NCBI GenBank assembly: GCA_903845055.1
Contig: CAIMWF010000058.1
Coordinates: 1-64,000 of the forward strand
From: an uncultured Bacteroidales bacterium
GTDB taxonomy: Bacteria > Bacteroidota > Bacteroidia > Bacteroidales > FEN-979
Direction: 5' to 3'
DNA length: 64,000 bases
A program made the position numbers and the translations under genes. The notes under the pieces are model-generated. The model searched no databases and was not told the DNA's origin. It saw only the letters and a list, made by a program, of their open reading frames with translations. Below, one piece after another: positions 11,494 to 34,962 of this stretch. Position 1 is the stretch's first letter. Each line of letters opens with the position of its first letter.

Positions 11494-12084
11494 ATGAAAA
11501 AAAAACCGAAATTACCGGCCAGGACCATCCATGTGAAAAACATGACCTGCAGCTGTTGCATTCACCTGCTGCGCCGGGAACTGACGCTCGACGGGGTTGA
11601 AATACAGGAGATACAGCTGGGAACCCTGCGCCTTGCCCTCGACACGGCAAAGATCACCTGGAGAAAAATCGAATCGATCCTGGATGGTTACGGGTTTGAG
11701 ATCATCCGCGACAAGGAGAAGATGATCGTGGAGCAGATCAGGCATGCAGTGATCGACCTGGTGCACAACTCCACCTACAATGCCATGGTGCGGAATTCGG
11801 ATTACCTGGTCGAACGTTTCGGCATGTCGTACCCCTACATTTCGACGCTTTTTTCAAAACATGAAGGGATTACCCTCGAAAAGTTCACCATCCTCCACAA
11901 GATTGAAAAGGTAAAGGAACTTATCGAATACGGCGAACTCACCCTGAGCGAAATTGCATATATGATGGGATACAGCAGCGTACAGTATCTTTCGACCCAG
12001 TTCAAATCGGTTACCGGGATTTCGGTTACGGAATACAGGGGTACCCCGGGCGCGGGCCGCAAAGGCATTGACAAAATCACGTAA
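11494..12084 (+). CDS. AraC-type HTH regulator with an N-terminal HMA-like metal-binding domain
   Basis: 196 residues. Residues 10-75 form a ferredoxin-like HMA domain with the metal motif M17-T-C19-S-C21-C22 (MxCxxC), as in copper chaperones. Residues 100-190 form an AraC/XylS double helix-turn-helix (YISTLFSKHEGITLEKF ... LSEIAYMMGYSSVQYLSTQF). This pairing is known from Bacteroidota, where such genes may sense copper or a related metal through the HMA part. It starts 9 bases after rodA, which is an odd partner, and may simply ride on that transcript. No metal transporter gene lies nearby, so the inducer is inferred only from the motif. Confidence 0.85.
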   Translation: MKKKPKLPARTIHVKNMTCSCCIHLLRRELTLDGVEIQEIQLGTLRLALDTAKITWRKIESILDGYGFEIIRDKEKMIVEQIRHAVIDLVHNSTYNAMVRNSDYLVERFGMSYPYISTLFSKHEGITLEKFTILHKIEKVKELIEYGELTLSEIAYMMGYSSVQYLSTQFKSVTGISVTEYRGTPGAGRKGIDKIT

Positions 12085-12287: not shown

Positions 12288-12548
12288 ATGAAACTTCGAA
12301 AAAATGTTGCCGTAAGTGAGGCCGGGCTTCTGTTCAACCCGGTGACGGGCGAATCATTTTCCGTCAACCCCATCGGGGTCGAGATCCTGAACATGGTCAG
12401 GGAAGATAAAAGCCCCGACCAGATCAGCAAAGCCATCCTCAGCAAATATTCGACCGACCGGGATACCTTTGAGAAAGACTACCACGACTTCATCGGTATC
12501 CTGGAACATCACAACCTGATCGAAAGCCATGAAGAAACGAAAGCTTAA
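12288..12548 (+). CDS. PqqD-family peptide-binding (RRE-like) protein
   Basis: 86 residues, the typical length for free-standing PqqD. The sequence shows the three-strand winged-helix pattern of PqqD and RiPP recognition elements: GLLFNPVTGESFSVNPIGVE followed by ILNMV, a spacer, then DYHDFIGILEHHNLI. PqqD proteins bind leader peptides and present them to modifying enzymes. The gene overlaps the ATP-grasp gene by 20 bases, so the two proteins are probably made in fixed ratio. No radical-SAM PqqE partner is nearby. The next-but-one gene has a leader-like N-terminus that could be its ligand (inference). Confidence 0.85.
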   Translation: MKLRKNVAVSEAGLLFNPVTGESFSVNPIGVEILNMVREDKSPDQISKAILSKYSTDRDTFEKDYHDFIGILEHHNLIESHEETKA

Positions 12549-13575
12549 CATCGCTGTCACCGGCCTGAACGCCATCGACTCGCCGGGTCCCGGGGTGTCG
12601 GTAATCAGGGCGCTGCGGGAGGCAGCTTCGTTTGATGTCCGCATCATCGGGCTTTCTTACGAGTCGCTCGAGCCCGGCATCTACATGCACGACCTGGTCG
12701 ACCGTACCTATTCAATACCCTACCCGGGCGCAGGCACCGATACCCTGCTTGCCAGGATGGAATACATCCATGAAAAGGAGAACCTCGACGTGATCATCCC
12801 GAACTTTGATGCGGAACTTTATCCCTTTATCAAGCTGGAAGCGAAATTAAAGGAGATGGGTATCCACATGTTCCTGCCCACCCTGCGCCAGTTTGAAGAA
12901 CGCCACAAGGTGAACCTTAACGATTTCGGGCGGAAATACAACATCAGCGTACCGAAAAGCAAGGTGATCTTCGACCTGAACACGGTGCACAGCCTGCCTT
13001 CCGAATTTTCGTTCCCGATGATCGTCAAGGGAAAGTTTTACGACGCTTCGATCGCCTACAGCATCGAACAGGTGAAGAGCTACTTCAACAAGATCAGCGC
13101 CAAATGGGGACTTCCGATCATCATCCAGGAGTTTGTACATGGTACTGAATTCAATGTTACCGGACTGGGCGACGGCAAAGGGAATACCATCGCGGCGGTT
13201 CCCATGCGCAAGCAGTACATCACCGACAAGGGCAAAGCCTGGGGAGGGATCTCCATATCGGACGAAAAGATGCTCGACATGACGAGGAAATTCCTGAAAA
13301 ACACCAAATGGAGGGGAGGTTTCGAACTCGAACTGATGAAAAACAAGGACGGTGAACTCTTCCTCCTGGAGATCAACCCGCGGCTCCCGGCATGGATCTA
13401 CCTGGCAGTGGGCGTGGGGCAAAACATCCCCGAAGCGCTGGTGAACCTTGCCATGGGGGTGAAGGTTACCCCCTTCAGTTCTTATGCCATTGGAAAAATG
13501 TTCGTGAGGTATTCATGGGATATGATCGTTGACCGGGAAGAATTTGAGCAGATCTCGGTTTACGGGGAACTTTGA
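12529..13575 (+). CDS. ATP-grasp ligase (PylC/carbamoyl-phosphate synthase-like)
   Basis: 348 residues. The N-terminal third is a Rossmann-like pre-ATP-grasp domain (IAVTGLNAIDSPGPGVSVIR). The ATP-grasp fold follows: a lysine in FPMIVKGKFYDASIAYS, the adenine-side motif IIIQEFVHGTEFNVTGLG and the metal-binding end FELELMKNKDGELFLLEINP RLPAW. Such enzymes join a carboxylate, via an acylphosphate, to an amine or similar nucleophile. Its close overlap with PqqD and the decarboxylase downstream suggest work on an amino acid or a peptide-bound residue, but the substrate is not readable. PylC-like is only a resemblance; no pyl genes are present. Confidence 0.85.
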   Translation: MKKRKLNIAVTGLNAIDSPGPGVSVIRALREAASFDVRIIGLSYESLEPGIYMHDLVDRTYSIPYPGAGTDTLLARMEYIHEKENLDVIIPNFDAELYPFIKLEAKLKEMGIHMFLPTLRQFEERHKVNLNDFGRKYNISVPKSKVIFDLNTVHSLPSEFSFPMIVKGKFYDASIAYSIEQVKSYFNKISAKWGLPIIIQEFVHGTEFNVTGLGDGKGNTIAAVPMRKQYITDKGKAWGGISISDEKMLDMTRKFLKNTKWRGGFELELMKNKDGELFLLEINPRLPAWIYLAVGVGQNIPEALVNLAMGVKVTPFSSYAIGKMFVRYSWDMIVDREEFEQISVYGEL

Positions 13576-13697
13576 AATGAATGCAGGAATAAAGTAATGC
13601 AGGAAAACCGGGAATAAGGCATCTAATGGTTTGGGGCTAAATTCCGGCATTGAGATTTGGATTTTATGTGTGGAATTAATTCAGAAAAAATAACAAA

Positions 13698-15056
13698 ATG
13701 AGCAAAATTCGATATGAACGCCCGGTGATTAAAAAGCTTGAAACCGGGATGCCGAACAAATTCGGAACCAGGACTGAATATGAACCCATGACCAGCATCG
13801 ACGGGGTGTCGGTGAACGAACTCATCCGTACCTATGGTTCTCCCCTCTTCGTCATTTCCGAAAAGACGGTGAGGTCGACCATCAGGAAGGCAAAAAAGGC
13901 GTTCGAAACACGGTATCCGAAGGTGCAGTTTGCCTGGTCGTACAAAACAAACTACCTGAACGCTGTTTGCAGCATTTTCCACCAGGAGGGCTCGTGGGCC
14001 GAGGTGGTTTCGGGGTTTGAATACGAAAAGGCGATCAGCCTCGGGGTGGATGGAAAGAAAATAATCTTCAACGGTCCGGACAAAAGCGAAACCGACCTCA
14101 CCAGGGCCATCTTGAACGATTCGCTGATCCACATCGATCACCTTGACGAACTCTATTCAATCACCGAACTGGCTGAAAAGCTGGACAGGCGTCCAAGGGT
14201 TGCCATCAGGGTAAATATGGATACAGGTGTATATCCCATTTGGGATCGCTTTGGTTTTAATTATGAAAACGGCCAGGCCTGGGATGCCATCAACAAAATC
14301 ATGCATTCGGAAAAAATGCAACTTGTCGGACTGCACTGCCACATCGGGACATTCATGCTCTCACCGTCTGCTTATGGCATTGCCGCGGCCAAGCTGGCTG
14401 AACTTGCGCTTGCACTCGAAAGCAAATTCAAACATACGATCCGCTACATCGACATGGGAGGCGGGTTCGCCTCCAGGAACACGCTCAAGGGATCGTACCT
14501 TCCGGGAAACGATATCAATCCCTCCTTCGACGACTTTGCAGAAGCCATCTCCACCGCCCTGATCAACAGCAATTTTCAGAAAGACAAATTGCCCCTGCTC
14601 ATCCTTGAAACCGGGCGTGCCCTGGTTGATGAGGCCGGATTCCTGCTCGGATCGGTGATCTCGAACAAGCGGTCGAGCACCGGACGGCGCAATACGATCA
14701 TCGATGTGGGGGTGAACATCCTGTTCACCTCGTTCTGGTACGATCACAAGATCACGCCGGCGCAGTCGTTCACCCATTATTCGGAGGATACCTGCCTGTA
14801 CGGACCGCTGTGCATGAACATAGACGTGATCCGCGAAAGCACAAACCTGCCGCTGCTCAATAAGGGCGAACACATTGTCATTCACAACGTAGGAGCTTAC
14901 AACATGACACAATGGATGCAATTTATTACCTTGCGGCCCAATGTTGTGCTGATCGACATGGACGAAAAGCCTCACCTGATCCGCAGCAGGGAATCGCTTG
15001 AAAACATGAACAGCATGGAAGAGGTGCCCGCGCACCTGGCGAAGTTCAATGTTTAA
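13698..15056 (+). CDS. Fold-type III PLP decarboxylase with an N-terminal leader-like extension
   Basis: 452 residues. The alanine racemase/DAP-ornithine decarboxylase fold is clear: PLP-lysine in WSYKTNYLNAV (near residue 78), GLHCHIGTF, IRYIDMGGGFAS, LETGRALVDEAGF, the cysteine-aspartate pair in YGPLCMNIDVI and the closing VGAYNMTQWMQF. Ahead of the catalytic core (which starts near SIDGVSVNELIRTYG) are about 35 extra residues, MSKIRYERPVIKKLETGMPN then KFG. These contain YxxPxI, very like the YxxPxL motif by which lasso-type leaders bind PqqD-like proteins. The canonical lysA at 33778 lacks this extension. It probably decarboxylates an amino acid or a derivative; the substrate is unknown. 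Confidence 0.85.
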   Translation: MSKIRYERPVIKKLETGMPNKFGTRTEYEPMTSIDGVSVNELIRTYGSPLFVISEKTVRSTIRKAKKAFETRYPKVQFAWSYKTNYLNAVCSIFHQEGSWAEVVSGFEYEKAISLGVDGKKIIFNGPDKSETDLTRAILNDSLIHIDHLDELYSITELAEKLDRRPRVAIRVNMDTGVYPIWDRFGFNYENGQAWDAINKIMHSEKMQLVGLHCHIGTFMLSPSAYGIAAAKLAELALALESKFKHTIRYIDMGGGFASRNTLKGSYLPGNDINPSFDDFAEAISTALINSNFQKDKLPLLILETGRALVDEAGFLLGSVISNKRSSTGRRNTIIDVGVNILFTSFWYDHKITPAQSFTHYSEDTCLYGPLCMNIDVIRESTNLPLLNKGEHIVIHNVGAYNMTQWMQFITLRPNVVLIDMDEKPHLIRSRESLENMNSMEEVPAHLAKFNV

Positions 15057-15200: not shown

Positions 15201-17411
15201 TTGGCTATCAAACGACTGACGACCACTTTTCCCTCGTTTCTTTCGAGTTTGCTGAACAGCTATACCCAGATCTTTTTTTCCGACAGCTGGATTTTTTCGG
15301 TGATCCTGGTGATCGTGTCGTTTTTTGATTTCTGGGCGGGTTTAAGCGGGGTGATCGCGGTAATGGCTTCTAACACGCTTGCCTATCTCATCGGTCTTAA
15401 CAGGCAGAAGATCAAACGGGGCTATTACGGGTTCAACAGCCTGCTGGTGGGACTTGGGCTCGGGGTATTTTACCAGCCCGGACCAGAGTTCTTCATCATC
15501 CTGGGTTTTGCCTCCCTGCTGACCCTGTTCCTGACGGTATGGATGGAAGGGGTGATCGGGAAATACGGGCTGCCTTTCCTGAGTGTTTCATTTTTACTCG
15601 GCACCTGGCTGGTCAGCCTTGCCACCCGCCAGTTTACGGCGCTTCATGTGAGTGAACGCGGGATTTACATGACCAACGAGATGTTCAGGCTCGGGGGACA
15701 GAAAATGGTTACCTCTTACAACCTGCTGGCCGACATGGGGATCCCTGAGTCGGTCAGGCTCTATTTTACCTCGCTGGGGGCCATCTTTTTTCAGTACCAC
15801 CTGATGGCAGGGGTGCTGATTGCCATCGGTTTGCTGATCTACTCCCGTATTGCCTTCATCCTGTCGCTGGTGGGCTTTTTCTCAGCCTATGCCTATTACC
15901 ATTTCATCGGCGCCGATATTCATGAACTCAGCTACAGCTTCATCGGGTTCAATTTCATCCTGACATCAATCGCCGTCGGCGGATTTTTCATCATCCCCTC
16001 GCGGTGGTCTTTCCTGTGGGTGATCCTGCTCACCCCGCTGATATCCATCATCCTGACCAGCACCCAGGCAATTTTCTCCATGTTCCAGCTTTCCGTCTAT
16101 TCCCTGCCGTTCAATGTTGTCGTGCTCATTTTCCTTTATGTCCTGAAGTTCCGTGAACGGTTTTTCGACAAACCCGAACTGGTCTCGTTCCAGCAAAATT
16201 CTCCCGAGAAAAACCTGTACGCACATTCCAATTACAAGACGCGCTTCGGCAAATCACTCTATTTCCCGTTCATGCTGCCCTTCTGGGGCGAATGGAAAGT
16301 GACACAGGGCCACGACGGGGAAGTTACGCACCAGGGCGACTGGCGCCATGCCTGGGATTTCGAGGTGACGGATGACGAAGGGCATACCTGGTCGGGCGAG
16401 GGGAACAACCGTGAAGATTATTACGCGTTCGGCAAACCGGTCGTCGCCCCGGCGGACGGGCACGTTGAGGAGGTCATCGACGATGTTGACGATAATGAGA
16501 TCGGCCGGGTGGACCTGGAACACAATTGGGGTAACACCATTATTCTCAGGCATGCCGACCAACTCTATTCAAAATTATCACACCTGAAAAAGGGCAGCAT
16601 CAGGGTCAGCGCGGGCGATGCCGTGAAAAAAGGCCAGGTTCTCGCCTCCTGCGGCAACTCGGGGCGATCGCCGGTGCCCCACCTTCATTTCCAGCTGCAG
16701 GCAACTCCCTGGATCGGCTCCCCGACCCTTGATTACCCGCTGAGCCACTTCATCCGGCATAAAAACGGCGGTTACGAAATGATCTCCTACGAATCGCCTG
16801 AAAATAGCGTACCTGTTTCAAATATTGTTAAAAACTCCTCCCTGGAGCGGGCATTTCATTTTATCCCCGGCCAGCAGTTCCGGTTCAAGGTTATCCCCGC
16901 CTCCGGGAGGGAATACCAGGTTGCATGGGAGGTGAAGGTGGATGCCATCAACCAGGTCTTTCTTTTTTGCGAGGAAACCGGATCACGCGCATGGTTCAGG
17001 AACGACGGCGATATCCACTACTTCACCTATTTTGAAGGCGACCGGTCGTCGGTCCTGTACAAATTCTTTCTAGGAGCCTACAAAGTGATGACGGGTTATT
17101 ACCGCGACCTCCTTGTGAAGGACCAGTTTCCCGTCAACATTTTCAACAACCGGGTTGCCGGTCTGGTCCAGGATTGCGTGGCCCCGTTCTTCTTTTTCAC
17201 GCGGTCGGAATACCGCCTGCATTACCTTGACATGGGCGATGACCTGATGCAGACCGACATCAGTCTGCATGCGGAGGTGAAGGCCAGGCTCGGCACTTTT
17301 GAACTCAGGAACATGAGTTGTGACATTTTTGTCGGCATTCACGGGCTTGAACGTTTCATCATCAGGGAAAAGGGTAATGAGACCATTGTCCACTTAATCA
17401 GCAGCCGATGA
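15201..17411 (+). CDS. Urea transporter family protein fused to an M23 peptidase domain
   Basis: 736 residues from a TTG at 15201; no in-frame ATG occurs until about codon 55 and an in-frame stop lies at 15080-15082 upstream, so TTG is the best start. Residues 20-330 are hydrophobic and show the two-fold repeat of urea transporters: GYYGFNSLLVG at about 75 and YSFIGFNFILTSIAVGG at about 245 (GFN at 77-79 and 249-251), with LPFLSVSFLLGTWLV. Residues about 355-520 are an M23/LytM peptidase: H383-A-W-D386, a HADQ-type strand, and H494-L-H496. A beta-rich tail of about 220 residues follows. The peptidase presumably faces the periplasm. It starts 145 bases after the decarboxylase and overlaps the next gene by 4. 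Confidence 0.85.
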   Translation: MAIKRLTTTFPSFLSSLLNSYTQIFFSDSWIFSVILVIVSFFDFWAGLSGVIAVMASNTLAYLIGLNRQKIKRGYYGFNSLLVGLGLGVFYQPGPEFFIILGFASLLTLFLTVWMEGVIGKYGLPFLSVSFLLGTWLVSLATRQFTALHVSERGIYMTNEMFRLGGQKMVTSYNLLADMGIPESVRLYFTSLGAIFFQYHLMAGVLIAIGLLIYSRIAFILSLVGFFSAYAYYHFIGADIHELSYSFIGFNFILTSIAVGGFFIIPSRWSFLWVILLTPLISIILTSTQAIFSMFQLSVYSLPFNVVVLIFLYVLKFRERFFDKPELVSFQQNSPEKNLYAHSNYKTRFGKSLYFPFMLPFWGEWKVTQGHDGEVTHQGDWRHAWDFEVTDDEGHTWSGEGNNREDYYAFGKPVVAPADGHVEEVIDDVDDNEIGRVDLEHNWGNTIILRHADQLYSKLSHLKKGSIRVSAGDAVKKGQVLASCGNSGRSPVPHLHFQLQATPWIGSPTLDYPLSHFIRHKNGGYEMISYESPENSVPVSNIVKNSSLERAFHFIPGQQFRFKVIPASGREYQVAWEVKVDAINQVFLFCEETGSRAWFRNDGDIHYFTYFEGDRSSVLYKFFLGAYKVMTGYYRDLLVKDQFPVNIFNNRVAGLVQDCVAPFFFFTRSEYRLHYLDMGDDLMQTDISLHAEVKARLGTFELRNMSCDIFVGIHGLERFIIREKGNETIVHLISSR

Positions 17412-18904
17412 GAAAAAAACTCGTTCTTTTCCTTCTCCCGCTGGTTTCGCTCATGCCGGTTTTTTCCATGGCTTCGGCAAAACTCGATTTTGCGACAGTC
17501 GACATGCTCACCTACCGGTGTTACCAGGAACAGAAATGGGACAGCGTGATCGCCGTCGGGAAGCAGGCTTTAAGGCAGGATATTGATTATTACTACCTCC
17601 GGGTGAGAATGGGTATCTCCTATTACCGGAAATCGGAATACCTGCCGGCAATTGCCCACCTTGAAAAGGCACGGCAGTTCAACTCCGGCGACCCGGTTGC
17701 CGGAAATTACCTTTACCGGGCCTACTGCCTTACCAACCGGAATGAGGAGGCACTGCTTCTCCGGGCCTCCATGCCTGCAGGGGATCGTGATACCACTGGG
17801 TCAGAGACCGGGATCGTTGAACAGGTGCATTTCGAAAGCGGCTATACCCTCAGCAGCGACCGGAATCCGAAAGACATCCCGACCCTGGCAGGGAAAGACA
17901 GCATATATGGCGGGCGCGACCTCTACGGGAACAGCTTTTACGCAAGCCTCGGGCTCAGGCTGAGGGTGTCGGACAGGATCGGCCTGAGCCTGTCGTACAA
18001 CTACCTGGATTTCACCAAGACCCGTTACATCCAGTACGGCCGGGCCGAAGCACACCGCGATTCGGTCAGCCGCCAGTTTTTCAGCAACGATTATTTCTAT
18101 TCCTATCCCTGGACCATGCACGACACCTCCTTCAGGTACCATGTAACCCAGCATGAAGCCTATGCCGGGGTCACAATCGTCCTCCCCTGGGGGCTCAGGG
18201 TGATGCCGGCCGTTCACTGGATCAACGACCGCTACAAAGTGATCACCACCACTTACCGCACCGACAGCATCACCGACACGGCCTATTACCTGAAACGCGA
18301 CAGTACCTACCACCTGTTCCGCTACCCGTTGCTCGTATACAATTATACCGAAAAGGATACCTCCTTCAACAACTGGGTGGTCTCGCTCCGGGTTTCAAAG
18401 GAACTGGGCAGGGTAAACCTGTCACTATCGGGCAGCTGGTCAAACCTGAACGGTAAAACCCAGAAACAGGCCGGCGCATCGGTAACCTATTATCCTTTCG
18501 GAAATTTCAATTTCTACGGCACCACCAGCGCCACCGGCTTTTTCCAGGGAAAAACCAGCCGTTTGCTGCTCAGCCAGGTGATCGGCGGCAGGATCACACA
18601 CTGGATGTGGGGCGAGGCGAATTTTTACAATGGCGACTACACCAATGCCAATATTTTCAATGGTTCGGTCGTTTACAACAACAGTGACATCATCGATTAC
18701 CGCGGCGGGGCCACCCTTGTGTTCATGGCCGGGAAACACCTTCAGCTGTCGCTGATCTGGCAGTATTTCAAAAAGGAGAGCCAGCAGTATTATTATATCA
18801 AAACCGTGAACCCCGACACCCATGCCGTCAAGGAGGTTCTGCAAACTAAAAACAACCCATATACCACTAACACAATCATCGGAGGAATTACATGGAAACT
18901 GTAA
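17408..18904 (+). CDS. TPR protein with a C-terminal outer-membrane beta-barrel
   Basis: 498 residues beginning with a signal peptide (MRKKLVLFLLPLVSLMPVFS). Residues 30-130 carry two or three TPR-like helices (YYYLRVRMGISYYRKSEYLP, YLPAIAHLEKARQFNSGDPV). From about residue 135 the protein becomes a run of alternating aromatic beta strands (LYGNSFYASLGLRLRVSDRI, LSLSYNYLDFTKTRYIQYG, and so on) ending at ITWKL, which suits a beta-barrel with an aromatic C-terminal strand. TPR-plus-barrel proteins occur in envelope export and polysaccharide systems. ATGA overlap with the urea transporter-M23 gene shows shared translation. Substrate unknown. Confidence 0.75.
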   Translation: MRKKLVLFLLPLVSLMPVFSMASAKLDFATVDMLTYRCYQEQKWDSVIAVGKQALRQDIDYYYLRVRMGISYYRKSEYLPAIAHLEKARQFNSGDPVAGNYLYRAYCLTNRNEEALLLRASMPAGDRDTTGSETGIVEQVHFESGYTLSSDRNPKDIPTLAGKDSIYGGRDLYGNSFYASLGLRLRVSDRIGLSLSYNYLDFTKTRYIQYGRAEAHRDSVSRQFFSNDYFYSYPWTMHDTSFRYHVTQHEAYAGVTIVLPWGLRVMPAVHWINDRYKVITTTYRTDSITDTAYYLKRDSTYHLFRYPLLVYNYTEKDTSFNNWVVSLRVSKELGRVNLSLSGSWSNLNGKTQKQAGASVTYYPFGNFNFYGTTSATGFFQGKTSRLLLSQVIGGRITHWMWGEANFYNGDYTNANIFNGSVVYNNSDIIDYRGGATLVFMAGKHLQLSLIWQYFKKESQQYYYIKTVNPDTHAVKEVLQTKNNPYTTNTIIGGITWKL

Positions 18905-19575
18905 GAAAAATTCAAAACTCAAAACTCAAAACTCAAAACCGGAAGAAATCAGCATGCTCGATTACGCGCTGTTTCGTTACATTGCTTTTCCTGTCATGTT
19001 CCCTTTCCCTTTTCAGCCAGGCAAATTACACGACGATGCAGGAGGCTTTTGCAAAGAGCCAGGAATATGAAGGGCGGGGCAATTTTGCCGATGCGATCGC
19101 CTCCCTGAAGACCATTTACCAGGAAGATTCTTATGAAATAAACCTGCGCCTCGGGTGGGTCACATATCTCAACGGTTCCTTTACCGAATCGACAGCCTAT
19201 TACCAGAAGGCCATCAAGCTGAAGCCTTATGCCCTCGAACCCAAATTCGGGTATGTTTACCCTGCCTCCGCACTCGGCAACTGGGACCAGGTGGTGAGCC
19301 AGTATACCGACATCCTTGCAGTCGATCCGCAGAATACCCTTGCCAACTACCGCATGGGTTCGATATTTTACGGCAGGAAGGATTATACGAAGGCCGAAAA
19401 ATTTCTGGAGAAGGTGATCAACCTGTATCCCTTCGACTACGACAGCATGATCCTTTATGCCTGGACAAATTACAAACTGGGCAAACTGCGTGAAGCCCAG
19501 GTGCTGTTCAACAAAGTATTACTGCACAAGCCGAAGGATGTTTCGGCACTCGAGGGGCTGTCGCTGATCAAATAG
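18892..19575 (+). CDS. Exported TPR repeat protein
   Basis: 227 residues starting at an ATG inside the last codons of the upstream gene, preceded by GGAGG. The first 20 codons translate the repeat TTCAAAACTCAAAACTC, an intergenic-type word array, so the original N-terminus may have been displaced; no other good start lies downstream before the signal helix (CFVTLLFLSCSLSLFSQ). Then come five TPR units, for example EINLRLGWVTYLNGSFTEST, ANYRMGSIFYGRKDYTKAEK and MILYAWTNYKLGKLREAQVL. It is probably periplasmic or outer-membrane associated and partner to the TPR-barrel protein. Confidence 0.8.
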   Translation: METVRKIQNSKLKTQNRKKSACSITRCFVTLLFLSCSLSLFSQANYTTMQEAFAKSQEYEGRGNFADAIASLKTIYQEDSYEINLRLGWVTYLNGSFTESTAYYQKAIKLKPYALEPKFGYVYPASALGNWDQVVSQYTDILAVDPQNTLANYRMGSIFYGRKDYTKAEKFLEKVINLYPFDYDSMILYAWTNYKLGKLREAQVLFNKVLLHKPKDVSALEGLSLIK

Positions 19576-33098: not shown

Positions 33099-33781
33099 TG
33101 GTAAGCCCTGACAATATATTGATTATTGACGACGAACTGCAAATCCGCAGGTTACTTGAAATAACACTCTCGGCGAACGGCTATAAAATTTCCGGGGCTG
33201 CAACCGGAAAAGAGGGACTGTCGATGGCAGCCACCAGCCAGCCTGTGCTGATCATCCTTGACCTGGGATTGCCTGACATGGATGGGCTTGATGTCCTTGA
33301 AAAGTTGCGTGAATGGTACCTGAAGCCCATCATCATTCTTTCGGTGCGCAATTCAGAGGTCGATATTGTAAAGGCCCTTGACCATGGGGCCAACGATTAC
33401 CTCGCCAAACCGTTTCGTACCGGCGAATTGCTTGCCCGCATCCGGGTCGCCAAACGGCAGGGCCAGGGAAATGCCGAAACTCCCGTTCTCAGCTTCGGAT
33501 CGCTGACGATCGATCTCCCGAACCACACCGCGCGGAAAAACAATGAATTGATAAAACTCACATCAACCGAGTTTTCCCTGTTGGCATTGCTGGCAAAAAA
33601 TGAAGGCAGGGTATTGACCCACCATTACATCCTGAAGGAGGTGTGGGGCATGGGCTATGTTGAGCAAACCCAGTACCTGCGGGTCTTCATCGCCCAGCTC
33701 CGCAAAAAGATAGAGGATGATCCTGCAAAACCCAAACTCTTCAATACCGAGTCGGGTATCGGTTACCGGTTTGGAAGCTAA
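33098..33781 (+). CDS. kdpE: KdpE response regulator
   Basis: 227 residues. Receiver domain 1-120 with the acidic pair in ILIIDDELQ, the phospho-acceptor Asp in LIILDLGLPDMDGLDVL, and the switch lysine in ANDYLAKPFRTGELLAR. An OmpR/PhoB winged helix fills 130-227 (LTSTEFSLLALLAKNEGRVL ... LRVFIAQLRKKIEDDP). Paired with KdpD it activates kdpFABC at low K+ or high osmolarity. It starts inside the kdpD stop (TAATG) and its own stop overlaps the convergent lysA stop by 4 bases. Confidence 0.96.
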   Translation: MVSPDNILIIDDELQIRRLLEITLSANGYKISGAATGKEGLSMAATSQPVLIILDLGLPDMDGLDVLEKLREWYLKPIIILSVRNSEVDIVKALDHGANDYLAKPFRTGELLARIRVAKRQGQGNAETPVLSFGSLTIDLPNHTARKNNELIKLTSTEFSLLALLAKNEGRVLTHHYILKEVWGMGYVEQTQYLRVFIAQLRKKIEDDPAKPKLFNTESGIGYRFGS

Positions 33782-34962
33782 ATGTCACGGATGATATTGC
33801 GGAAGGCTATTCCCCGGTCGGAATAAAATGCGGCCGCCAGGTCGCGCAGGTTGTACCGCGACGACATGGTTTGCCCGTAGGCTCCCGCCGACCTGATCGC
33901 AAGGAGGTCGTTCCGCCTGGTTTTCGGCAAAGAGACGGCCTTCCCGAAACAATCGGAAGACTCACATATGGGTCCAACCACATCATATTTTTCCGGCGGG
34001 TCCACCGATGTCAGGTTCTCCATCCGGTGATAACTCTGGTAAAGCGCCGGGCGGATCAGGTCGTTCATCCCGGCGTCGACAATCGCGAAGCGGGTGTTGA
34101 CGCCCTTTTTTACAAACAACACCTTCGTGATCAGGCTGCCGCACTGGCCGACAAGGGCCCGCCCGGGTTCAAAATGAAGTTCCTGGTCCGGCTGCAACCG
34201 TATAAAATCCTTAAAAACCCTGAAATACTCCCCAAAATCAGGGACCGGGTTCCTGTCGGGATCCTGGTAATCGATCCCCAGCCCGCCCCCGACATTGATG
34301 ATCTCCGCCCTGACCTGGTTGGAAATAAACCATTCATTGATGTCGTTGATCCGGTGGCAGAGACTCTTGAAAACGCCCAGATCGGTAATCTGTGACCCGA
34401 TATGAAAGTGCAACCCTTTCAACCGGAGGTTCCCGAGTTGTTTAAGCGTTTCCAGCACCCGGTCGAATTCCCACGGGAGGATGCCGAACTTATTCTCCTC
34501 CAGCCCGGTGGTGATGTACCGGTGGGTGCGGGCATCCACGTTGGGGATGATGCGGAGTGAAATACCCGCCTTCAGCCCGATGGCGCCGGCCAGTTCATCG
34601 ATGATCTCCATCTCCTGCCGCGATTCAACGTTCAGGCTCTGGATGCCCAGTTGCAGGGCCAGCCTGATCTCGGCGTCCGATTTCCCTACGCCCGAAAACA
34701 TGATCTGTTTCGGGTTGAAGCCGTTTTCCACGGCAGCCCTGATCTCGTTTCCGCTCACGCAGTCGGCGCCATACCCCGCCCCGCTGATGACCGACAGGAC
34801 CTCAGGGTTGGAATTGGCCTTCAGTGCATAATGGAGTTTGTATCCAAACCGCCCGGCGACGCCGGCGCAAGTTGATAAGGTTTTCCGCAGCAATTCCATG
34901 TCATAGTAATAGAATGGTGTCTGGATCGTGCGGAACTTTGCGATGGTGTCTTCCCGGAACAT
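33778..34962 (-). CDS. lysA: Diaminopimelate decarboxylase
   Basis: 394 residues. Motifs of the PLP decarboxylase: LHYALKANSNPEVLSV (PLP-lysine), GADCVSGNEIRAAVENGF, GLHFHIGSQITDLGVF, NVGGGLGIDYQDPDR, EPGRALVGQCGSLI and the CESxD motif in GPICESSDCFGKA. It makes L-lysine from meso-DAP, the last step. The start is 18 bases after lysC, so the pair form one operon. Standard enzyme without the leader-like N-terminus of the 13698 homologue. Confidence 0.96.
   Translation of the reverse strand: MFREDTIAKFRTIQTPFYYYDMELLRKTLSTCAGVAGRFGYKLHYALKANSNPEVLSVISGAGYGADCVSGNEIRAAVENGFNPKQIMFSGVGKSDAEIRLALQLGIQSLNVESRQEMEIIDELAGAIGLKAGISLRIIPNVDARTHRYITTGLEENKFGILPWEFDRVLETLKQLGNLRLKGLHFHIGSQITDLGVFKSLCHRINDINEWFISNQVRAEIINVGGGLGIDYQDPDRNPVPDFGEYFRVFKDFIRLQPDQELHFEPGRALVGQCGSLITKVLFVKKGVNTRFAIVDAGMNDLIRPALYQSYHRMENLTSVDPPEKYDVVGPICESSDCFGKAVSLPKTRRNDLLAIRSAGAYGQTMSSRYNLRDLAAAFYSDRGIAFRNIIRDI

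Follow-up and report, generated by a model that had tools for sequence, protein, structure and literature searches.

A lasso-type leader on a PLP decarboxylase encoded beside a PqqD-family protein in Bacteroidota

Described leader and ligase systems and the present locus

RREs serve as markers of peptide natural products. In the lasso leader/B1 pairs (TbiA/TbiB1, TfuA/TfuB1 and LppA/LppB), a PqqD-family RRE is combined with a [Y/W]xxPx[L/V/I] motif, and the leader follows the spacing Tyr(−17), Pro(−14), Leu(−12), Thr(−2) and Gly(+1) (PMC10368454, available portion). A 2025 RRE survey (PMC12710340) charts YxxP-type motifs across precursor peptides and also covers RRE fusions; in its available portion we found no leader-bearing enzyme client. 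In Bacteroidota graspetides an ATP-grasp ligase is also found in a RiPP-like setting (PMC8939145, available portion). The client of the lasso RREs is a precursor peptide.

Borosins combine RiPP logic and an enzyme in one chain, the enzyme being fused to its own core peptide. In the butirosin system, BtrJ is an ATP-grasp ligase paired with the decarboxylase BtrK. The latter has the alanine-racemase fold and acts on glutamate bound to a carrier protein, BtrI, a separate protein of 87 residues (PMC7857480, cited here and below for its available portion). The decarboxylase FslC/FigC (PDB entry 7KH2) likewise works with a ligase, FslA/FigA, on a conjugated amino acid; FigC acts on N-citrylornithine, and SbnH and AcsE act on citryl amino acids (PMC7857480).

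We analysed a stretch of 64,000 nucleotides (the window) from a 3.9 Mb genome in 175 contigs. A gene for a PqqD-family protein is followed by an overlapping gene for an ATP-grasp ligase and then by a gene for a PLP decarboxylase (DC) with a leader-like N-terminus. The preliminary description of the window had pointed out both this N-terminus and the PqqD gene two genes upstream, and both stand, with the ATP-grasp gene lying between PqqD and the DC. The features are as follows.

12288–12548, + strand: PqqD-family RRE protein, 86 residues (Pfam PF05402)
12366–12368, + strand: Asn27 of PqqD, conserved in 189/189 sequences; probable counterpart, by the register applied here, of the LppB Asn that fixes the kinked Pro of the leader
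12477–12479, + strand: Asp64 of PqqD, which covaries with leader residue 6 and aligns with TbiB1 D70
12529–13575, + strand: ATP-grasp ligase, 348 residues, PRK12767-like, with an ExNPR motif (E281, N283, P284, R285)
13698–15056, + strand: leader-bearing PLP decarboxylase, 452 residues, alanine-racemase fold; nearest to N-citrylornithine and diaminopimelate decarboxylases, also to BtrK
13713–13730, + strand: putative docking motif Y6-E7-R8-P9-V10-I11 of the DC (lasso leader positions −17 to −12)
13755–13766, + strand: second conserved block N20-K21-F22-G23 of the DC (lasso positions −3 to +1)
13767–13796, + strand: variable linker, DC residues 24–33, ahead of the enzyme domain
15201–17411, + strand: fusion of a urea-transporter domain with an M23 peptidase domain, downstream of the DC
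17408–18904, + strand: 498-residue protein, probably an outer-membrane/TPR protein, downstream of the DC
18892–19575, + strand: TPR protein, 227 residues, downstream of the DC

Compared with the lasso pairs, the spacing to positions −2 and +1 is the same and the pocket residues are conserved. The client, however, is a 452-residue metabolic enzyme instead of a precursor peptide, the residue at −2 is Lys instead of Thr, and the short precursor of the lasso type, with a core peptide behind the leader, is not seen in the DC system. No asparagine-synthetase-like cyclase occurs among the eight window proteins scanned for domains. Compared with FslA/FigA, which is a NIS synthetase, the ligase here is an ATP-grasp enzyme, and the DC system has both a leader and an RRE, neither of which is mentioned for FslC/FigC in the available portion of PMC7857480. 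BtrK is more distant from the DC than FigC is. Graspetide ligases act on a precursor peptide, in which they form lactams or lactones, and no such peptide with a DC-type leader was found here; the borosin enzyme carries its substrate peptide, whereas the DC carries a leader. We found no description of a leader–decarboxylase/PqqD system in the open-access literature. The contact between an RRE and a leader is already known, and it is for its use on an enzyme that we found no prior account.

The decarboxylase and its leader

The best NCBIfam model for the DC is FslC (NF041039) with 245.8 bits, followed by the LysA model TIGR01048 with 221.5 bits, and neither score reaches the curated cut-off of its model (500 and 297.9, respectively). 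Among solved structures the closest relative is the N-citrylornithine decarboxylase 7KH2 (E 2.5e-63), behind which diaminopimelate decarboxylases and BtrK (E 2.3e-21) are ranked. The enzyme domain begins at residue 31–38 in the NCBIfam alignments and at residue 34 in the PDB alignment. The catalytic set is kept: the PLP lysine K83, the loop G254–256, E304 and R307 of the ETGR motif and C372, whose positions were matched on the 7KH2 alignment and whose roles are taken from PMC7857480, are invariant in 35 aligned DCs. In the same alignment, Arg387 of FigC, the proposed citrate-binding residue, faces Gln405 of the DC. Judged from these comparisons, the DC is a separate clade and not a lysA enzyme with an added extension, and the preliminary description is to be corrected on this point. 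Its statement that the ordinary lysA of the window has no such extension holds for the lysA-like gene at 33778–34962 (minus strand), which adjoins an aspartate kinase gene and is named from its matches and context. At the other end of the DC, behind a variable stretch, there is a nearly invariant C-terminal ExxPxxL motif (residues 441–447, 15018–15038), with E441 in 52, P444 in 53 and L447 in 52 of 54 representatives.

The DC N-terminus reads MSKIRYERPVIKKLETGMPNKFG, with YERPVI at residues 6–11. The general pattern is [YF]E[RK]Px[ILV], followed by an invariant Lys in NKFG. Among 54 representatives sharing less than 80% identity, P9, K21 and Y/F6 are present in all, E7 and G23 in 53 each, and position 11 is I, L or V throughout, while residues 24–33 drift. 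A larger set was built from 241 loci, of which 239 contain a DC; after merging of duplicates, which arose because many of the genomes entered the set twice, 204 distinct sequences remained. In these, P9, Y/F6 and I/L/V11 are each found in 203 of 203 readable sequences, K21 in 204/204 and G23 in 202/204, and position 20 varies directly beside the invariant K21. The mean frequency of the top residue is 0.73 for residues 5–23 and 0.52 for residues 24–34, and the conserved sites use several synonymous codons. Poor conservation, which the preliminary description had named as a weak point of its proposal, is therefore not what the extension shows. The last 60 loci, taken from 148 matching genomes, were found by a query of the Phe type, and Phe leaders are by design over-represented in the set. 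All of the 204 leaders counted sit on the PLP enzyme; the sequences had been picked as relatives of that enzyme.

Y6, P9, I11, K21 and G23 fall exactly on the lasso positions −17, −14, −12, −2 and +1. The residue at −2 is Lys in 204/204 DCs, which departs from the lasso rule of Thr, rarely Ile or Val. Matches of the leader profile in the PDB were chance matches only, and PHROGs and plasmids (E ≤ 1e-60) gave no match.

We then compared the distribution of the DC, its leader and its neighbours across 247 Bacteroidota genomes (DC clade, E < 1e-140; ATP-grasp, E ≤ 1e-30; leader profile, E ≤ 0.01). A DC search at E ≤ 1e-30 is bimodal, with 23 genomes below 1e-140 and the remainder no better than 1.7e-40. 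The weaker matches start at query residue 25 or later, that is, behind the leader. The ATP-grasp ligase is found in exactly the 23 genomes of the DC clade and in 0/224 of the others. The leader is present in 23/23, in 22 by the profile and in the last by eye (PYTKPVL...TNKFA). In all 23, the window's genome included, PqqD and the ATP-grasp ligase are encoded just upstream of the DC. In this sample the extension does not occur apart from the system; its presence in genomes lacking PqqD would, by the preliminary description, have spoken against the proposal. In a further scan of named genomes, one of whose six patterns falls inside the leader, the leader is present in 79/80 loci (the best 80 of 582 relatives), and L053, the exception, ends at a contig edge.

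Across the 239 loci with a DC, PqqD is present in 221 and the ATP-grasp ligase in 229. Ten of the 18 loci without PqqD also lack a full ATP-grasp gene, and 13 of the 18 are explained by a contig edge. At L230 and L275, about 300–420 bases of contig precede the ligase, and PqqD is not seen on them. L098/L211 (one contig) and L223 are genuine separations of the DC from its partners; in two genomes (G068 and G099) the DC stands apart, and the ATP-grasp and PqqD genes lie together on another contig.

The leader profile (E ≤ 0.01) matches in 24 of the 247 genomes, and no other convincing bearer, such as a short peptide client, is among the matches. Two weak matches occur in genomes without a DC, and both were rejected as peptide clients: the match in G167 lies on the strand opposite a sensor-kinase-like gene, and that in G324 covers only profile positions 9–25, with no gene of the system within 16 kb. 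In the genome that carries the window no peptide client with a DC-type leader was found, since its single leader-profile match is the DC.

PqqD and its covariation with the leader

The window PqqD matches PF05402 with E 2.4e-11. Among solved structures, the lasso RRE TbiB1 is the closest to it in sequence (E 7.5e-10), and the two align without gaps at an offset of 6. The predicted structure of PqqD superposes on TbiB1 chains from leader-peptide complexes with deviations of 1.3–1.8 Å over 82–83 columns and TM-scores of 0.84–0.89 by target length. In the related RRE LppB, the leader contacts include N33, Y60, D70 and F74, and D70 bonds the leader Tyr, as in an actinobacterial lasso RRE (PMC13381572, available portion). 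With the TbiB1 offset applied to LppB, these residues would correspond to N27, Y54, D64 and F68 in PqqD. N27 is conserved in 189/189 sequences and F68 in 185/189; among 110 pairs, Y54 and D64 are kept in 102 each, L72 in 97 and L77 in 98.

A search with the PqqD sequence itself gave one match in the genome, as if it were the only one; the Pfam family search found a second PqqD-family gene (125 residues, E 3e-6, above the Pfam cut-off; G000:C6:7802–7978, L342:1324–1701). This gene stands between oligopeptide-transporter-like and dipeptidase-like genes, which were named by eye, and PqqD proteins are therefore not confined to the DC system. A third, sub-threshold PqqD-like stretch lies within a 1140-residue frame. 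Neither of the two has a leader-profile match beside it in this genome.

To compare the leader with its putative reader, we paired 189 of the 204 DCs with their PqqD; the other 15 have no PqqD in their stretch. Leader residue 6 and PqqD residue 64 occur as Y-D in 135 pairs, Y-N in 15, Y-H in one, F-Y in 23, F-S in 12, F-A in two and F-H in one. Tyr6 therefore goes with Asp, Asn or His in 151/151 pairs and Phe6 with Tyr, Ser, Ala or His in 38/38; Phe6 with Asp64 (0/38) and Tyr6 with Tyr, Ser or Ala64 (0/151) do not occur. In APC-corrected mutual information, this pair ranks first of 452 × 80 = 36,160 pairs (z 17.8). The second rank is again held by a leader–PqqD pair, DC4 and PqqD53 (z 11.4), in which Lys/Arg4 goes with Asp/Glu53 in 26/48 cases and never with Lys/Arg53, and a hydrophobic residue 4 goes with Lys/Arg53 in 90/102.

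The covariation was also analysed on a tree of the DC core and the ATP-grasp ligase (109 rows, trait columns excluded, two basal rows long-branched), on which leader residue 6 changes at least seven times. With Asp and Asn grouped, a dependent model of evolution beats the independent one (LR 68.3, 4 d.f., p 5e-14); the p value is rough, as some rates hit their limits, and the grouping of Asn with Asp was picked after the data had been seen. Under the plain Asp/not-Asp coding the values are LR 30.1 and p 5e-6, and 16/109 rows disagree. When the grouped PqqD64 state alone was simulated, each of 769 kept runs gave at least 12 mismatches, compared with 0/107 observed. The Tyr/Phe switches all lie within one subclade. 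Well-supported branches yield three independent pairs, 2.9 of which change the same way and 0 the opposite way, a number at which the sign test cannot reach 0.05. An earlier, smaller tree with the Asp/not-Asp coding yielded one such pair; PqqD went along with the leader in 0.4 of the draws and showed no difference in 0.6. Lineage accounts for part of the signal, because PqqD64 also correlates with positions of the DC core (z up to 9.9) and with ATP-grasp residue 46 (z 10.0). Taken as a whole, these comparisons indicate that the tag and the tag reader changed in step during evolution.

We further compared AlphaFold2 models of the DC alone and of the leader in a chain with PqqD. For the DC alone (35 sequences) the mean pLDDT is 79.0, and residues 1–19 lie below 50 with scarcely any structure, residues 1–10 averaging 37. 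The complex was modelled as one chain in which an out-of-frame read-through spacer joins PqqD to DC residues 1–45, from 25 sequences (24 of the 27 same-frame loci entered the alignment). Here the pLDDT of the leader rises to 78 for residues 1–10 and is 61 for residues 11–20. The leader forms strands at residues 4–5 and 11–14, and short ones occur at PqqD 22–26 and 54–55. The blocks of PqqD reach 64–88 and the spacer is mostly at about 25; owing to this spacer, the overall confidence is low (mean pLDDT 38.6, pTM 0.27). The NKFG stretch has low or middling confidence in both models. The strand pattern is that expected from known leader complexes and serves as supporting evidence. The preliminary description had looked to such a prediction for placement of the leader in the groove of PqqD: the model gives an ordered leader with strands, and the pairing of the strands and the placement in the groove are what we infer from it.

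Proposed enzyme docking, its alternatives and the neighbouring genes

From the covariation, the conserved pocket and the model, PqqD very probably binds the DC leader. Since tag and reader have changed in step, it appears that in many Bacteroidota a system for docking peptides was converted to the docking of an enzyme. The reading we prefer, with a probability of roughly 0.6, is that PqqD docks the DC as its client and brings it together with the ligase for conjugation and then decarboxylation. PqqD would be a stand-alone RRE whose client is the decarboxylase instead of a peptide, and it would grip the DC N-terminus in the lasso manner, with Tyr/Phe6, Pro9 and Ile11 in the pocket and the leader adding a strand to the sheet; covariation, residue conservation and the model are the grounds for this step. 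Held by PqqD, the leader would bring the DC to the ligase and may place the NKFG block there. As the enzyme families suggest, the ligase would conjugate an amino acid through an amide bond, and the DC would then strip the carboxylate from the conjugated amino acid. This order parallels the FigA/FigC and BtrJ/BtrK pairs, and it fits since the relatives of the DC act on conjugated amino acids. The preliminary description had offered two readings, a docking of the decarboxylase onto the ATP-grasp enzyme by PqqD and a modification of the decarboxylase itself; the binding of the leader is well supported, and the remainder we infer.

The ligase scores best with PRK12767/carbamoyl-phosphate-synthase-like models and has ATP-grasp Pfam matches, and E281, N283, P284 and R285 are invariant in 28 aligned sequences. 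Between PqqD and the ATP-grasp ligase, covariation revealed no convincing contact. The conservation of NKFG is explained neither by PqqD nor by the enzyme core, because confidence there is low or middling in both models, and the ligase is the best candidate for a partner of this block. The top pair between leader residues 1–30 and the ligase is leader 19 with ligase 286, in E-x-N-P-R-x-P (z 11.4).

The same observations bear on another use of the block, in which Lys21 is an attachment site. PqqD would offer the ε-amine of this residue to the ligase, which would join an amino acid to it; the protein's own PLP domain would then decarboxylate the tethered group. The enzyme would in this way be its own carrier, and the arrangement a fused version of the butirosin set of BtrI (carrier), BtrJ (ligase) and BtrK (decarboxylase). 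K21 is kept in 204/204 sequences although position 20 varies, it stands at lasso position −2 with G23 at +1, where lasso leaders meet the processing enzymes, and neither model explains the conservation of the stretch. PylC is a precedent for an ATP-grasp enzyme that ligates onto a lysine amine; the PylC-like N-domain match of the window ligase is weak (E 0.023, below the cut-off). BtrK works on carrier-bound glutamate (PMC7857480), and the leader 19–ligase 286 pair points in the same direction. This pair, however, reflects mostly one deep split (LR 10.7, p 0.03), pairs between the DC core and the ligase equal or exceed it (z up to 14.0), and an invariant Lys could equally serve recognition. 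We hold the loading of Lys21 to be possible and rather doubtful, and the same grade applies to the wider picture of a self-carrying decarboxylase, in which leader and RRE present Lys21 and the loaded swinging lysine feeds the PLP site of its own protein. If true, carrier-protein biosynthesis would here have a counterpart that is ribosomal and guided by a leader.

That the leader regulates or sorts the DC, with PqqD masking or exposing the active site or setting stability apart from ligase catalysis, is improbable: the leader is free in the model of the DC alone, and hence available, but the DC clade and the ligase share one set of 23 genomes out of 247 and usually lie side by side, which argues for a joint task, and regulation would leave the conservation of NKFG unexplained. 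Still less probable is a vestigial or active lasso-like maturation, with a cut near residue 22 that would free the mature enzyme from its leader. K21-F22-G23 do correspond to lasso −2, −1 and +1; on the other hand, −2 is an invariant Lys and not Thr, and the M23 peptidase domain encoded downstream belongs to a membrane protein. A search of the genome that carries the window for PF13471 (Transglut_core3), which we take to be the lasso B2 leader peptidase family, gave no match with E ≤ 0.1. Finally, PqqD might serve an unrelated peptide and the DC leader resemble a lasso leader by chance or lineage inheritance. A bare Y..P.[ILV] match is taken as not rare, yet the 204/204 conservation of K21, the complementary covariation and the single leader match in the genome speak against chance, and no short open reading frame with the same leader was found by the profile in the 247 genomes; we give this explanation hardly any weight. 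Against enzyme docking, in turn, stand the small number of independent switches on well-supported branches (three, in one subclade), the two genomes in which the DC lies apart from its partners, the lineage share of the covariation, the low overall confidence of the complex model, the modest LR of the leader 19–ligase 286 pair and the second PqqD-family gene in another context.

If docking is true, the RRE–leader pair is also an enzyme-docking module, in a widespread Bacteroidota pathway; an RRE alone would not imply a RiPP, and searches for short precursors would miss enzyme clients. The change of the contact from Tyr/Asp to Phe/Tyr(Ser) would give ready swaps of specificity, and the leader would be a handle on an uncharacterised ligase/decarboxylase pathway tied to envelope proteins.

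This tie comes from the genes downstream, whose domain names are taken from the window's own copies. Long flanks are available for 81 loci. The urea-transporter/M23 fusion has a relative in 80 of them (with the M23 part covered in 79), the 498-residue protein in 60 and the 227-residue TPR protein in 71. By clustering, the three families sit downstream of the DC in 78, 55 and 68 loci, respectively. From this make-up of the operon the product may serve the envelope, and it would probably be handed to the envelope proteins encoded there. A membrane channel with a peptidase domain (15201–17411) is an odd companion for a ligase/decarboxylase pair, and the genes at 17408–18904 and 18892–19575 seem to form the end of the operon.

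Upstream of PqqD lies a gene for an AraC-type regulator (11494–12084) whose N-terminal domain is heavy-metal-associated-like, below the Pfam cut-off, with a CxCC stretch; tblastn finds a relative in 30/81 long loci. Directly before the DC and overlapping its start codon is a tiny open reading frame, MCGINSEKITK (13666–13701), which is probably due to chance; its MCGI start resembles that of glutaminase-type asparagine synthetases. At two loci (L194:6930–7748 and L198:9451–10233) a gene for a probably secreted protein of 260–272 residues separates the ligase from the decarboxylase. One genome (G109, loci L206 and L227) carries the decarboxylase and the ligase in two copies, and its decarboxylases are 75% and 65% identical to that of the window.
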